34,368 bases of DNA, taken from an uncultured Ruminococcus sp. GTDB lineage: Bacteria > Bacillota > Clostridia > Oscillospirales > Acutalibacteraceae. Positions 18,607-24,287 of this stretch are shown piece by piece (the stretch's first letter is position 1; each line of letters opens with the position of its first letter). Where the stretch lies: NCBI GenBank assembly GCA_902763365.1, contig CACWRT010000016.1:1-34368 (forward strand). The letters are read 5' to 3'. The translations under genes were made by a program, and so were the position numbers. Under the pieces are notes generated by a model that saw nothing but the letters and a program-made list of their open reading frames with translations, did not search any database and was not told the DNA's origin.

Positions 18607-20247
18607 TTATTGATCTTTGAATTCGATCTGTCCGTTATCCTCAAGCTGTTTCTCTGATGCTGCTTTTATAAACTCACGGAAAAGCGGATGAGCATGATTC
18701 GGACGGCTCTTGAATTCCGGATGGTACTGTACACCGATATAAAAACGATTCTCAGGTATCTCCACGGCTTCAACCAACATCCCGTTTGGCGATGTCCCCG
18801 TGAAGATCATGCCGTTTTCTTCAAACTGACTGCGGAATTCATTATTGAATTCATAGCGGTGGCGGTGACGCTCGGAAATAACAGACTCGCCGTAGGCACG
18901 TTCCATTATGGTGTTTCTGCGTACCTTGCACGGATATGCGCCAAGACGCATAGTACCGCCCATATCAACAATGCCCTTCTGATCAGGCATAAGGTCAATA
19001 ACCTTGTGCTTGCTTTCGGGGGCAAATTCACCTGAATCAGCATCGTTGAAACCGAGAACATTTCTTGCAAACTCAATTACTGCCGTCTGCATTCCAAGAC
19101 AAATTCCAAGATACGGTATGTCATGCTCTCTTGCATATTTTGCGGCAATTATCTTACCCTCAACACCTCTGTTTCCGAAGCCGCCGGGTACGAGAATTCC
19201 GTCAACATCACCTAAAAGCTCATCAGCGGTGTAATCTGTGATAAGCTCTGTATCTATCCAGTTGATATCTATAAACGCCTTATTTTCATAACCTGCGTGA
19301 CGCAGAGCCTCTGCAACTGAAAGATATGCGTCATGAAGCTGTACGTATTTTCCGCAAAGCGCAATCTTTACAGTCTTTTCCCTTGTGTTTATACGGTCAA
19401 GCATCTCCTGCCATTCGCTCATGTCTGCTTTCGGCGCATTTATATTAAGCTCACGGCACACGATATCACTGAAATTAGCCTTTTCAAGCATAAGCGGCGC
19501 CTGATAAAGTACAGGGATAGTCATGTTTTCGATTACACAATCATCCTTCACATGACAGAACATTGCTATCTTCTTGAATATACTCTTGTCCTCGATCGGC
19601 TCATCACTTCTGAGAACCATTATATCGGGATTGATACCAAGTGAACGAAGCTCCTTGGCACTATGCTGAGCAGGCTTTGACTTATGCTCCTGACTTGCCT
19701 TCAGATACGGTACAAGGCATACATGAACAAATAAGCTGTTCTCCTTGCCTACCTCAGCACTTACCTGACGGATGGCTTCGAGGAAGGGCTGGCTTTCTAT
19801 ATCACCTACAGTTCCGCCGATCTCTGTAATAACTACATCAGCGTCACTGTCCTTTCCTACTGCATATATAAATGATTTTATCTCATTCGTTATATGAGGG
19901 ATGACCTGAACTGTTTCGCCCAGATAATCTCCTCTGCGCTCTTTATCGAGTACATTTGAATATACTTTGCCTGTTGTAAGATTAGAGAATTTGTTAAGAT
20001 TTTCGTCAATAAAGCGTTCATAGTGACCGAGGTCAAGATCGGTTTCTGCACCGTCCTCTGTAACATAGACCTCGCCGTGCTGATACGGACTCATAGTTCC
20101 CGGATCGACATTGATATACGGATCCAGCTTCTGCGCTGCCACCTTCAGACCTCTCGCCTTGAGAAGTCTGCCCAGTGAAGCAGCTGTAATGCCTTTACCC
20201 AGACCCGACACAACGCCGCCTGTGACGAATATGTATTTCGTTATCAT
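18607..20247 (-). CDS. pyrG: CTP synthase PyrG
   Basis: PyrG makes CTP from UTP, ATP and glutamine, the last step of pyrimidine nucleotide synthesis. The 546 residues hold the N-terminal synthetase domain (1-270; [21 protein letters not shown]-loop, [21 protein letters not shown] and the GGTVGDIES motif) and the C-terminal class I glutamine amidotransferase domain (about 290-535) with nucleophile Cys383 in GICLGMQ and His509-Glu511 in YHPEF. All catalytic residues are present. Its ATG overlaps the TGA of the carB-dapF gene as ATGA (20244-20247), a sign of translational coupling. It is the last clear gene of the carA operon. Confidence 0.97.
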
Positions 20248-23200
20248 AACTCTATTTCTCCTTCAAATACTGTTTCGGCTACACCTGTGAGATATACTGT
20301 ATCCTCAGTATACTCGATCACCAGATTGCCGCCCTTGAGTTTTACGGTTATAGGCGTATCCTTCTTGCAAAGACCGTTTTCAATTGCTGCAACAGCAACT
20401 GCACAAGCGCCTGTACCGCAGGCCCATGTTTCGCCTGTTCCTCTCTCCCACACACGCATTTCTACTGTCTTTTCGTCCAGAACCTTGACAAATTCCGCAT
20501 TTACACGCTCGGGGAACAATTCGCTGTTTTCAAATTTCGGTCCGATCTTTTCAAGGTCGATCTTTTCCACATTATTGCAGAATACCACTGCATGAGGATT
20601 GCCCATAGATACACAGGTAATATTATAATCTTCTCCGTCAATGTTCACAGGCTCGTTGATAACACGGGGCTTGTCAATTGCTACGGGAATAAGCTCGCTT
20701 GAAAGCTCTGCCTTGCCCATATCTACCTTGAACACATCGTTCTCTCCGTCGTGACGGAATACTTTTATTGTCTTGATACCGCTGAGGGTTTCAACCGTAA
20801 TTGTCTTGCCTCTGACCATATCATGATCGCAAAGATATTTAGCAATACATCTGATACCGTTGCCGCACATCTTACCCTCAGATCCGTCAGCATTATACAT
20901 CTTCATCTTTGCATCAGCCTTGTCTGACGGACAGATAAGAATTACGCCGTCACCGCCGATACCGTACCTTCTGTCACTGAAACGAACTGAAAGACCTTCG
21001 GGGTTATTTATCTTCTGATCAAAGCAGTTAAAATAAATGTAGTCATTACCTGTGCCCTGCATTTTGGTAAATCTGAGTCTTACCTTTTCTGTTCTCATAT
21101 CATTGATATCAACCAGTTCTGTGCTGTATTCACTGTACTTACTCTTTAGTGAATCTGCCAGTGCATTTGCCGTATCAATTGATGTCAGGCAGGGGATATT
21201 TCTTTCAACTGTCTTTCTTCTTATCTTAACGCTGTCACGGGTAGGTATTCTGCCCTTTGAGGATGTGGAAATAACATAATTTATCTTTCCGCTCTCGATA
21301 AGTGACAGTGTGTTTTCCTTTTCATTCTCGTGTATCTTATCAACTTCGATAACATCCAGACCATAATCACGGATCGTATTTGCAGTACCCTTTGTAGCAT
21401 AAAGCGTAAAGCCCAGCTCTACATATTTCTTTGCAACTGCTCCTATCTCGCTCTTATCAGGATTGCGCACTGTAATAAATACACCGCCCTGCTTTTTCAT
21501 CTTATAGCCTGCTGCTATAAGTCCCTTATAAAGTGCTTCTTCAAGGGTATTTGCAATACCGAGAACCTCACCCGTTGATTTCATTTCCGGACCCAGCTGG
21601 TTGTCAACATTGATAAGCTTTTCAAAGGAGAATACCGGAACCTTTACAGCAACATATGGGGATCTCTTATAAAGACCTGTGCCATAACCCATATCAACAA
21701 GCTTTTCGCCAAGCATCGCTCTTGTTGCAAGATCAACCATCGGAACGCCCGTTACCTTACTGATATACGGGATTGTTCTTGAAGAACGGGGATTGACCTC
21801 GATAACATAAAGCTTATTCTCATAAATAAGGTACTGTATATTTACAAGACCCTTTGTTTTCAGGGATACTGCAAGGTTCTTTGATGTTGTAATAATATTT
21901 CTTGTCATTTCATCGCTGATATTCCATGCGGGATATACTGCGATGGAGTCACCCGAATGTATACCTGCTCTTTCAACGTGCTGCATGATTCCGGGGATAA
22001 GTATTTCTTCTCCGTCACATATCGCATCAACTTCAAGCTCTGTACCTGAAAGGTATTTATCTATAAGGATCGGGTTTTCAATATTCTGTGCAAGGATGAT
22101 CGCCATATATTCTCTGATATCCGCTTCATTGAAAGCAATTATCATATTCTGACCGCCCAGAACATAGGACGGACGCATAAGAACAGGATAGCCGATCTTT
22201 TCTGCAACCTCCAGAGCTTCTTCTGTTGTCATCACGGTAAAGCCTTCGGGACGCTTAACATTGTGCAGCTCAAGAAGCTCATCAAAACGCTCTCTGTCCT
22301 CTGCCATATCAATACTGTCGGCAGATGTGCCGAGAATATTTACTCCGCTTTCACTGAGGAATTTCGTAAGCTTTATAGCAGTCTGACCGCCGAATGCCAC
22401 AACAACACCATAGGGCTTTTCTGTTTTGATTATACCCATTACATCCTCATTTGTAAGCGGTTCAAAATACAGTCTGTCTGCCGTATCAAAGTCTGTTGAA
22501 ACCGTTTCGGGGTTATTATTTACGATAACAACATCAAATCCCGCTTTTTTCAGTGCCCATACACAGTGAACAGACGCATAGTCAAATTCAATACCCTGAC
22601 CGATACGGATAGGACCGGAACCGAATACCATGATAGTTTTTCTCGGTGAATTTTTCTCTTTTATAAATGCTTCTGCCTCGTTATCATTATCATATGTTGA
22701 ATAGAAATAAGGAGTTTCAGCCTTGAACTCGGCAGCGCAGGTATCAACCATTTTATATACGGGGATCATGGGATTTTCTACCTTTTTGCCGCTGAGTGAT
22801 TCTATAGTTCTGTCAAGGAAACCTAAAAGCTTTGCTTTTTTATACAGCTCTTCGGTAAGCTCTTCCTCTTTCAGCTCTCTCTCGCAGTTTACAAGATTAA
22901 GCAGCTTTCCAAGGAACCATTCGTCTATCATTGTTATGGAATGGATCTCATCAACTGTTATCCCTCTCTTCAGTGCTTCATACACACAGAAGGAACGCTC
23001 GTCATCACATACACTGAGCTTTTCTCTGATCTCTTCTGTAGACATTTCCTCAAATTTCGGCGAGGACATAGTGTCATGCTTTATCTCTGCACCTCTGACA
23101 GCCTTCATGATAGCCTGTTCAAATGTCGGTGCAATTGACATTACTTCGCCTGTTGCCTTCATCTGTGTGCCGAGAGTACGCTTAGCATAAACAAACTTAT

Positions 23201-24287
23201 CGAAAGGCCACTTCGGGAATTTAACAACAACATAGTCAAGCGCAGGCTCAAAGCAGGCATATGTTGTACCCGTAACGGCATTCTTTATTTCATTAAGTGT
23301 ATATCCTATAGCAAGCTTTGCAGCAACCTTTGCAATAGGATATCCTGTTGCCTTTGATGCAAGTGCCGATGAACGGGAAACTCTGGGATTTACCTCGATA
23401 ACAGCGTAGTTGAAGCTTTCAGGCTCAAGCGCGAACTGACAGTTACATCCGCCCTCTACACCAAGTGCCGATATGATATTAAGAGCAGCACTTCTGAGCA
23501 TCTGATATTCCTTATCCGCAAGAGTAACTGTAGGTGCAATTACTATACTGTCGCCTGTATGTACACCAACAGGATCGAAGTTTTCCATGGAGCATACGGT
23601 GATAACATTTCCCATCTTATCGCGCATTACCTCGAACTCGATTTCCTTCCAGCCTGCGATACACTTTTCAACAAGAACCTGTGTGATAGGCGAAAGCTCA
23701 AGACCGTTTGCGGTTATTTCTCTGAGTTCTTCCTCATTATTAACAATACCGCCGCCTGTACCGCCCAGTGTGAAGGCAGGACGGATTATTACCGGATAGC
23801 CTATTTCATCGGCAAAATCCACAGCTGACTGAACATCATTTACAACCAATGACGGGATAACAGGCTGACCAATGGATTCCATTGTATCCTTGAACATCTG
23901 TCTGTCCTCTGCCTTGTCAATAGTTTCGGGATTAGCGCCCAAAAGCTTTACTCCGTGTTTTTTAAGGAAGCCTTCCTTTGCAAGCTGCATGGAAAGTGTA
24001 AGACCTGTCTGACCGCCAAGCGTAGACAAAAGGCTGTCAGGTTCTTCCTTTATGATAATTCTTTTTACTGTTTCAAGAGTAAGGGGTTCTATATAAACTT
24101 TATCCGCCATTGCCTTATCTGTCATAATTGTAGCAGGGTTGGAGTTTACAAGAATAACTTCAAGACCTTCTTCTTTCAGGGCACGGCAGGCCTGTGTTCC
24201 TGCATAGTCAAACTCGGCTGCCTGTCCGATAACTATAGGACCCGATCCTATCACCAATACTCTTTTAATGCTGTTATCCTTTGGCAT
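20244..24287 (-). CDS. carB-dapF: Fusion: carbamoyl-phosphate synthase large subunit (CarB) + diaminopimelate epimerase (DapF)
   Basis: One uninterrupted frame encodes 1347 residues. Residues 1-1063 are a full CarB, which makes carbamoyl phosphate for pyrimidines and arginine: two ATP-grasp halves ([17 protein letters not shown] near 13-29 and [17 protein letters not shown] in the second half) and a C-terminal MGS-like regulatory domain ending at [20 protein letters not shown]. Residues 1064-1347 are a full DapF, which makes meso-diaminopimelate for peptidoglycan and lysine: [21 protein letters not shown], catalytic Cys1141 in [16 protein letters not shown] and catalytic Cys1290 in ACGTGAC. 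There is almost no linker. The Met1064 codon (ATG 21098) has no good ribosome site, so separate translation of DapF looks unlikely. carA ends two bases upstream. Confidence 0.95.

Follow-up and report, generated by a model that had tools for sequence, protein, structure and literature searches.

An uncultured Ruminococcus sp. carries, on a 34,368-nucleotide stretch of DNA (contig CACWRT010000016.1, positions 1 to 34,368, of assembly GCA_902763365.1; in the following, the window), a gene that joins two enzymes of unrelated pathways in a single reading frame: CarB, the large subunit of carbamoyl phosphate synthetase (CPSase), and DapF, the diaminopimelate (DAP) epimerase of lysine and peptidoglycan synthesis. 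The product of this carB::dapF gene is probably bifunctional, a CPSase large subunit that is at the same time an active DAP epimerase, and would have been fused from neighbouring genes of one operon. This reading draws on features visible in the sequences, namely an intact frame, the catalytic and ligand residues of the DapF part, a full-length CarB part, the conservation of both in relatives, and the order of the surrounding genes. Across the wider family of fused proteins, many lineages have lost a catalytic residue of the epimerase and nevertheless keep the domain, and we tentatively consider a second, non-catalytic role of DapF on CPSase.

Architecture of the fused protein

The frame begins with an ATG at 24287 on the minus strand, its stop codon ends at 20244, and its 1347 codons contain no internal stop. 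A first-pass annotation, made from the letters of this DNA, had described a carB frame that continues through its MGS domain into a DapF with two catalytic cysteines. Our searches bear this out: both families are complete within the one frame, with Cys1141 in the motif MCGNGIRC and Cys1290 in ACGTGAC. The CarB family model TIGR01369 matches residues 2-1045 with 1460 bits (cut-off 1027), and by Pfam and NCBIfam this part is full-length above the curated cut-off, with both ATP-grasp halves, the oligomerisation domain and the MGS domain. Its best sequence match in the PDB is E. coli CarB, it holds the sole CPSase_L_D3 match in its genome, and carA, which encodes the glutaminase partner, lies directly upstream. 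The DapF model TIGR00652 matches residues 1072-1345 with 294 bits (cut-off 115), and the best PDB sequence match of this part is the Bacillus anthracis enzyme. All eight DAP-contacting residues are present (N1081, N1132, N1143, N1230, N1263, E1281, R1282 and T1292), paired by motif rather than by structure to those named in PMC5296763. A model of residues 540-1347, predicted like all our models as a single chain, resembles E. coli CarB and solved DapFs (predicted local distance difference test score, pLDDT, 81.8; predicted template modelling score, pTM, 0.69) and reaches a target-normalised template modelling (TM) score of 0.93 to 9mro.

The N-terminal part, up to about residue 1045, would thus serve as a CPSase large subunit working with CarA, while the C-terminal 275 residues would turn LL-DAP, the product of DapL, into meso-DAP. 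Among 152 distinct complete fused proteins, 109 have both cysteines and keep the eight ligand residues almost without exception; in close pairs with both cysteines, the ratio of nonsynonymous to synonymous substitution rates (dN/dS) places the DapF part under purifying selection, with distant pairs set aside. If both activities work, the point of the join might lie in a fixed 1:1 dose and a shared control of pyrimidines and DAP, the precursors of UDP-N-acetylmuramic acid (UDP-MurNAc)-peptide. Nucleotide control of epimerase output through the MGS domain is possible, because the equivalents of the effector residues Lys, Thr, Thr and Lys are kept in the window protein and one, that of Asn1015, is replaced by Ser; the equivalent of Tyr1040 is Cys. 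The roles of these residues, including Asn1015 and Tyr1040, we take to be those of E. coli CarB.

We expect the gene to yield one polypeptide, with an estimated mass of about 148 kDa. An internal start that releases free DapF beside the long protein is very improbable: start codons led by a Shine-Dalgarno (SD) sequence do occur at the junction of 21 of the 152 fused genes, some of them good (ATGAGGAG...ATG in L219, L233 and L200), but they are in no excess over control windows inside CarB (488 of 3040), whereas 126 of the 152 carB starts have one. The junction of the window has none, in agreement with the ribosome site reported missing before Met1064, and with no enrichment over the controls the internal start was dropped.

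Distribution of the fusion

Within the genus, 46 of 64 genomes contain one uninterrupted match, from residue 22 or earlier to residue 1347 and without a stop. Pieces only were found in 14, with a TAG inside the match in one (G056), and the four genomes without any fusion match are all 62-80% complete. In a larger genome collection, 589 stretches encode a relative; we analysed the best 80 loci, which, being best matches, are uninformative on frequency. CarB and DapF share one frame in each of these 80 (that of L068 stops at a contig end within DapF), and among their hosts are Ruminococcus albus KH2T6, Ruminococcus sp. FC2018, Saccharofermentans and Christensenellaceae. The first-pass annotation had raised a sequencing error at the junction and proposed a search for related proteins of similar make-up. 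The genome is indeed assembled in 211 contigs, but an assembly or sequencing error that joins two genes is hardly conceivable when the fused frame recurs uninterrupted in 46 genus genomes and joins CarB and DapF in the best 80 of 589 loci, including that of the strain KH2T6, and we regard it as ruled out.

Wider sampling covered 140 genomes of the family, 137 of the order, 147 of the class and 149 of the phylum. Frames of some 1310 residues or more that include DapF recur in many families, a few of which lie beyond the class, and ordinary dapFs of around 280 residues occur alongside them. The fusion is therefore not the singular event that it might seem from one genome, but a widespread and conserved architecture. 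In the family sample, 47 of the 119 genomes with dapF entries have a fused frame, frames cut by contig ends being scored as not fused; 26 of these 47 are without a stand-alone dapF entry and 21 have one as well. A plasmid search matched 359 of 72,556 records, and five among the matches listed cover 78-81% of the query.

Some loci depart from the simple arrangement. A Ruminococcus-type genome encodes a CarA::CarB::DapF triple fusion in one frame of 1701 residues (L044:1747-6852; also L035:725-5830). In three other loci (L113:1580-6607, L151:2998-8110, L149:2938-10003), a separate second dapF stands downstream of the fused gene on the same strand, ahead of pyrG, with a gap of 72 bp in L113, 133 bp in L151 and about 2 kb in L149.

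Gene neighbourhood and origin of the fusion

No metabolic reason for the join had been apparent at first, an impression that gene order weakens: dapF, dapL (which encodes its upstream enzyme), pyrG and carAB recur as neighbours with or without the fusion. An aminotransferase resembling the DapL of the window's genome (blastp above 180 bits) is a neighbour in fused clusters (carA, carB::dapF, pyrG, dapL) as well as in unfused ones, and three of these neighbours (L259, L173, L252) are confirmed by TIGR03542 with 509-589 bits. Unfused orders are carA-carB-dapF-dapL (L264-L269), dapF-dapL-carA-carB (L259-L261, L263), dapF-pyrG-dapL (L132, L139, L140, L142, L144, L153, L157, L175) and carA-dapF-pyrG-dapL without a carB between carA and dapF (L137, L173; CarB is encoded elsewhere in G147 and G415). 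The family sample also has 72 genomes with dapF entries in which a complete fused frame is absent; in 26 of them dapF and carB are no more than 3.3 kb apart, and one of these (G093) is a truncated fusion. Given this repeated adjacency, the fusion of operon neighbours is a simple origin.

Junction length is identical in 150 of the 152 fused proteins, and the junction matches the tail of unfused CarBs; DapF was therefore joined straight onto the natural end of CarB. We envisage a carA-carB-dapF-(pyrG)-dapL cluster in which the stop codon separating carB from dapF was lost, in nearly all cases probably through a single event, after which the fusion would have spread over many clostridial families. 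We built a CarB tree from 144 rows after thinning at 88% identity. One of its branches, with support 100, sets 88 of the 89 fused rows apart, together with six rows labelled unfused; the other side holds 49 unfused rows and the fused L240. Two of the six are incomplete, L007 as a clipped part of the gene in the window and L271 because its contig ends there, so that only four unfused CarBs with their own end fall inside the fused group (L277, L278, L270, L293). The DapF tree, made from 177 rows after thinning at 90%, groups 113 of 115 fused rows and 12 stand-alone DapFs on a common branch (support 96). Approximately unbiased (AU) tests leave the placement of these 12 inside or outside the fused group unsettled, and we do not claim, as a quick tree had suggested, that nested stand-alone dapFs are later fissions. 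A tree holding 50 main fused rows together, with the nested stand-alone rows kept outside, has a log-likelihood 66.7 above that of the free search, and for a smaller set the AU test gives p 0.29. In L250, CarB falls inside and DapF outside the fused group, and the test is compatible with one clade (p 0.50). One main origin of the fusion thus appears likely. L240, which has a longer junction, may be a second origin, but the tests do not show two independent origins (AU p 0.41 on CarB, and p 0.15 for all fused DapFs together).

It is conceivable, if somewhat doubtful, that the join has no function of its own and that operon neighbours were fused by the loss of a stop codon without further consequence, both halves working as before. 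In line with this, dapF adjoins or nears carB in several unfused arrangements, DapF sits exactly at a CarB tail that unfused CarBs also have, and G153, G139 and G115 have free dapF-pyrG-dapL clusters and yielded no CarB match at the threshold applied. However, the join persists across wide divergence and only the four CarBs named above have an end of their own inside the fused group, and a neutral passenger leaves unexplained the constraint on the domain after loss of its catalytic base, to which we return below.

Other routes to meso-DAP

The fused domain is not the sole route to meso-DAP in its own genome, which encodes a stand-alone dapF (291 residues, on a separate contig, 53% identical to the fused domain), the meso-DAP dehydrogenase Ddh and, on a different contig from the window, DapL. 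A separate dapF had been named in the first-pass annotation as evidence that would make the fused domain redundant; such a gene is present, and it undoes the proposal only in part. In the genus, a second dapF is found in 24 of 64 genomes (in three as pieces only) and Ddh in 49 of 64. Four of the 26 good genus genomes (completeness 90% or more, contamination 5% or less) have neither a stand-alone dapF nor Ddh: G007, G008, G043 and G060, of which the latter three are estimated to be 100% complete. In these four, the fused domain is the only meso-DAP route seen.

Several points weigh against a bifunctional enzyme of one main origin. In the window's own genome, the second dapF and Ddh may render the fused epimerase dispensable. 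The presumed catalytic competence of the CarB part is taken from the family match rather than from a comparison residue by residue. According to PMC5296763, DapF functions as a dimer, so the fused DapF would need a suitable assembly. Finally, both trees place L240 apart from the main fused group, and a single clade is neither rejected nor demonstrated by AU tests.

Loss of the catalytic cysteine in fused relatives

At the position of Cys1141, the 152 fused proteins have C in 110 cases, A in 21, G in 11, S in 6, F in 2, Y in 1 and T in 1, so that this cysteine is absent from 42; Cys1290 is C in 145. By comparison, both cysteines occur in all 78 distinct stand-alone DapFs, which come from tables ranked by likeness to the window DapF and are no random draw. 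The fused sample is itself uneven, with Cys1141 absent in 30 of 59 loci picked for spread and in 12 of 92 nearer the window, and all 20 distinct genus sequences tested have both. On a CarB tree of 87 fused rows, the state of Cys1141 needs 16 changes, 12 of them forced by well-supported branches; this tree omits near-copies, five of them lacking the cysteine, and the changes could include regains. One old clade, with 19 rows on the CarB tree, is without Cys1141 throughout.

In Corynebacterium glutamicum DapF, alanine at either cysteine almost abolishes activity (PMC5296763). The fused domains without Cys1141 (in the following, Cys-less) are nevertheless constrained: five close Cys-less pairs have dN/dS values in the DapF part of 0.062, 0.128, 0.055, 0.032 and 0.021, within the span seen for close pairs that have both cysteines; three of the eight Cys-less pairs were too distant and were set aside. 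All eight DAP-contacting residues are kept in 28 of the 42 proteins and Cys1290 in 36, and the model of one Cys-less domain (L080; pLDDT 90.6) has DapFs as its best PDB matches. With a kept fold, a lost catalytic residue and a constrained sequence, these relatives are candidate pseudoenzymes. The two examples compared still pass TIGR00652, with 272 and 257 bits against the cut-off of 115.

Since the Cys-less pairs are under purifying selection and ligand residues are kept, they point to a second, non-catalytic role on CPSase. A further role of the domain may well exist in lineages that lost the epimerase base, and our best lead for the whole family is a reason to keep DapF on CarB that is independent of catalysis, as a DAP-binding or dimerising domain. 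More specifically, we suggest, tentatively and with less confidence than in bifunctionality, that the CarB-borne DapF binds DAP in an allosteric or assembly function, being enzyme and sensor in the window's genus and, in many other lineages, a pure pseudo-epimerase sensor that selection retains. CPSase, and hence the supply of pyrimidines and UDP-sugars, would then respond to the DAP pool of the cell wall, and the pseudo-epimerase lineages, for a cysteine state that changes 12 to 16 times on the CarB tree, would mostly have another route to meso-DAP.

The kept ligand residues would favour DAP binding, whereas weaker conservation in the old clade would fit a mere structural role in that group. 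In that clade (20 rows), ligand residues are kept at 0.869 against 0.902 at other invariant positions, compared with 0.966 against 0.913 in the other 22 Cys-less proteins; the DAP-sensor reading is therefore weaker there. The two groups also differ in the MGS domain: the K954 equivalent is K in 4 of 20 and the N1015 equivalent Y in 18 of 20 in the old clade, and they are K and S, respectively, in all of the other 22.

The expectation of another meso-DAP route was examined in 65 genomes, where a stand-alone DapF and/or Ddh occurs in 29 of 30 lacking Cys1141 against 23 of 35 keeping it (Fisher 0.0018). Three of the 29 are weak, G171 with a Ddh piece at a contig edge, and G280 and G231 with a second DapF match that was counted and not itemised; without them, the comparison is 26 of 30 against 23 of 35 (p 0.08). 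Tree-corrected pairs are nearly always in the predicted direction, with too few differing (median p 0.5). A DapL-like gene accompanies the fusion in 24 of 42 loci that have both cysteines and in none of 12 that lack one, counted over 54 named loci with 3.4 kb or more of downstream sequence and without correction for kinship. For one genome that is 99% complete (G101, locus L243), with Ala at Cys1141, we found neither a stand-alone DapF nor Ddh.

Alternatively, the Cys-less domains could be alive, catalysing another or a one-base reaction, in which case no binding or scaffold role would be needed. The fold includes PhzF and hydroxyproline dehydratases, which carry out one-base or other reactions and appear among our weaker structure matches. 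We regard this as unlikely: the frequent retention of Cys1290 and of most ligand residues would suit it, but the replacements of Cys1141 are varied and do not converge on one new base.

The window and its operon

Tightly packed on the minus strand, carA, carB::dapF and pyrG follow an ANTAR-domain gene (Table 1). Of the 136 carA genes with 700 bp or more of upstream sequence, 44 have an ANTAR-like open reading frame (ORF) immediately 5' of them; beside such an ORF stand the end of a glutamine synthetase gene in L259 (ORF 492-1043) and, in L173 (ORF 1134-1703), a GXGXG protein, presumably of the glutamate-synthase type. From these ANTAR neighbours, a nitrogen-responsive car/dap operon is a fair guess, and it is possible that the ANTAR protein regulates the window operon by antitermination according to nitrogen state.

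Table 1. Features of the carB::dapF operon in the window.
Feature	Position	Strand	Basis
carB::dapF, fused protein of 1347 aa	20244..24287	minus	ORF, Pfam and NCBIfam matches
CarB part, residues 2-1045: two ATP-grasp halves, oligomerisation domain, MGS 950-1035	21153..24284	minus	TIGR01369 2-1045, Pfam
Junction, residues 1045-1072: CarB C-terminal tail directly into DapF	21072..21155	minus	Same length in 150/152 fused proteins
DapF part, residues 1072-1345, with Cys1141 and Cys1290	20253..21074	minus	TIGR00652 1072-1345
carA, glutaminase subunit, directly upstream of carB::dapF	24290..25366	minus	
pyrG, CTP synthase, start codon overlapping the carB::dapF stop	18607..20247	minus	
ANTAR-domain response-regulator-like protein, upstream of carA	25438..26013	minus	Pfam ANTAR, 58.9 bits

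Elsewhere, the window encodes a protein of 732 residues with BspA-type leucine-rich repeats and a bacterial Ig-like domain (26630-28828), one of 997 residues with regulator propeller, Y_Y_Y and HD domains (13629-16622), and a long frame of at least 1304 residues that runs past the window end (30454-34368); for its ATG form of 1197 residues, neither Pfam (E 0.001) nor NCBIfam (1e-10) gave a match.

Relation to known proteins and significance

The CarB part shares with E. coli CarB (PDB 1bxr, 1jdb; TIGR01369) all domains in order, including MGS, the adjacent carA and the Lys/Thr/Thr/Lys effector equivalents; it differs in the 275-residue C-terminal DapF and in the Ser and Cys at the Asn1015 and Tyr1040 equivalents. 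The DapF part matches stand-alone DapFs (PDB 2otn from B. anthracis, 9mro, 5m47 from C. glutamicum; TIGR00652) in length, in both cysteines, in the eight DAP contacts and, by its model, in the predicted fold, but is tethered to CarB, and Cys1141 is gone in 42 of 152 fused relatives. CPSase is also fused to other enzymes in one chain in eukaryotic CAD and other multi-enzyme pyrimidine proteins. There, however, consecutive pyrimidine steps are joined, whereas here the partner comes from lysine and peptidoglycan synthesis. A DapF with more than one role is likewise known from the bifunctional DapF/glutamate racemase of NCBIfam NF038284 and the Chlamydia DapF (PMC5885031), but there the two activities reside in one domain, and the window protein scores 115 bits against the NF038284 cut-off of 350.

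In the titles and abstract beginnings of papers listed by searches of the open literature, with most subscription papers outside this scope, we found no description of a CarB-DapF fusion, nor did we find one in the accessible part of PMC9026213, which deals with DapF variants of gut bacteria (dapF2, a pyridoxal phosphate enzyme). The architecture is probably already present in sequence databases, and our claim is limited to its not having been found described.

Fused CarB-DapF occurs in many gut and rumen bacteria, several lineages of which have lost a catalytic residue and yet keep the domain under selection. This sets a trap for annotation: the two Cys-less examples compared pass the DapF cut-off, and a model of lysine or cell-wall synthesis can thus credit a genome with an epimerase that is possibly inactive. 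If the domain does sense DAP, the supply of peptidoglycan precursors would be wired directly to nucleotide synthesis in one of the major groups of gut bacteria; even if not, the fusion joins two unrelated biosynthetic enzymes across wide divergence.

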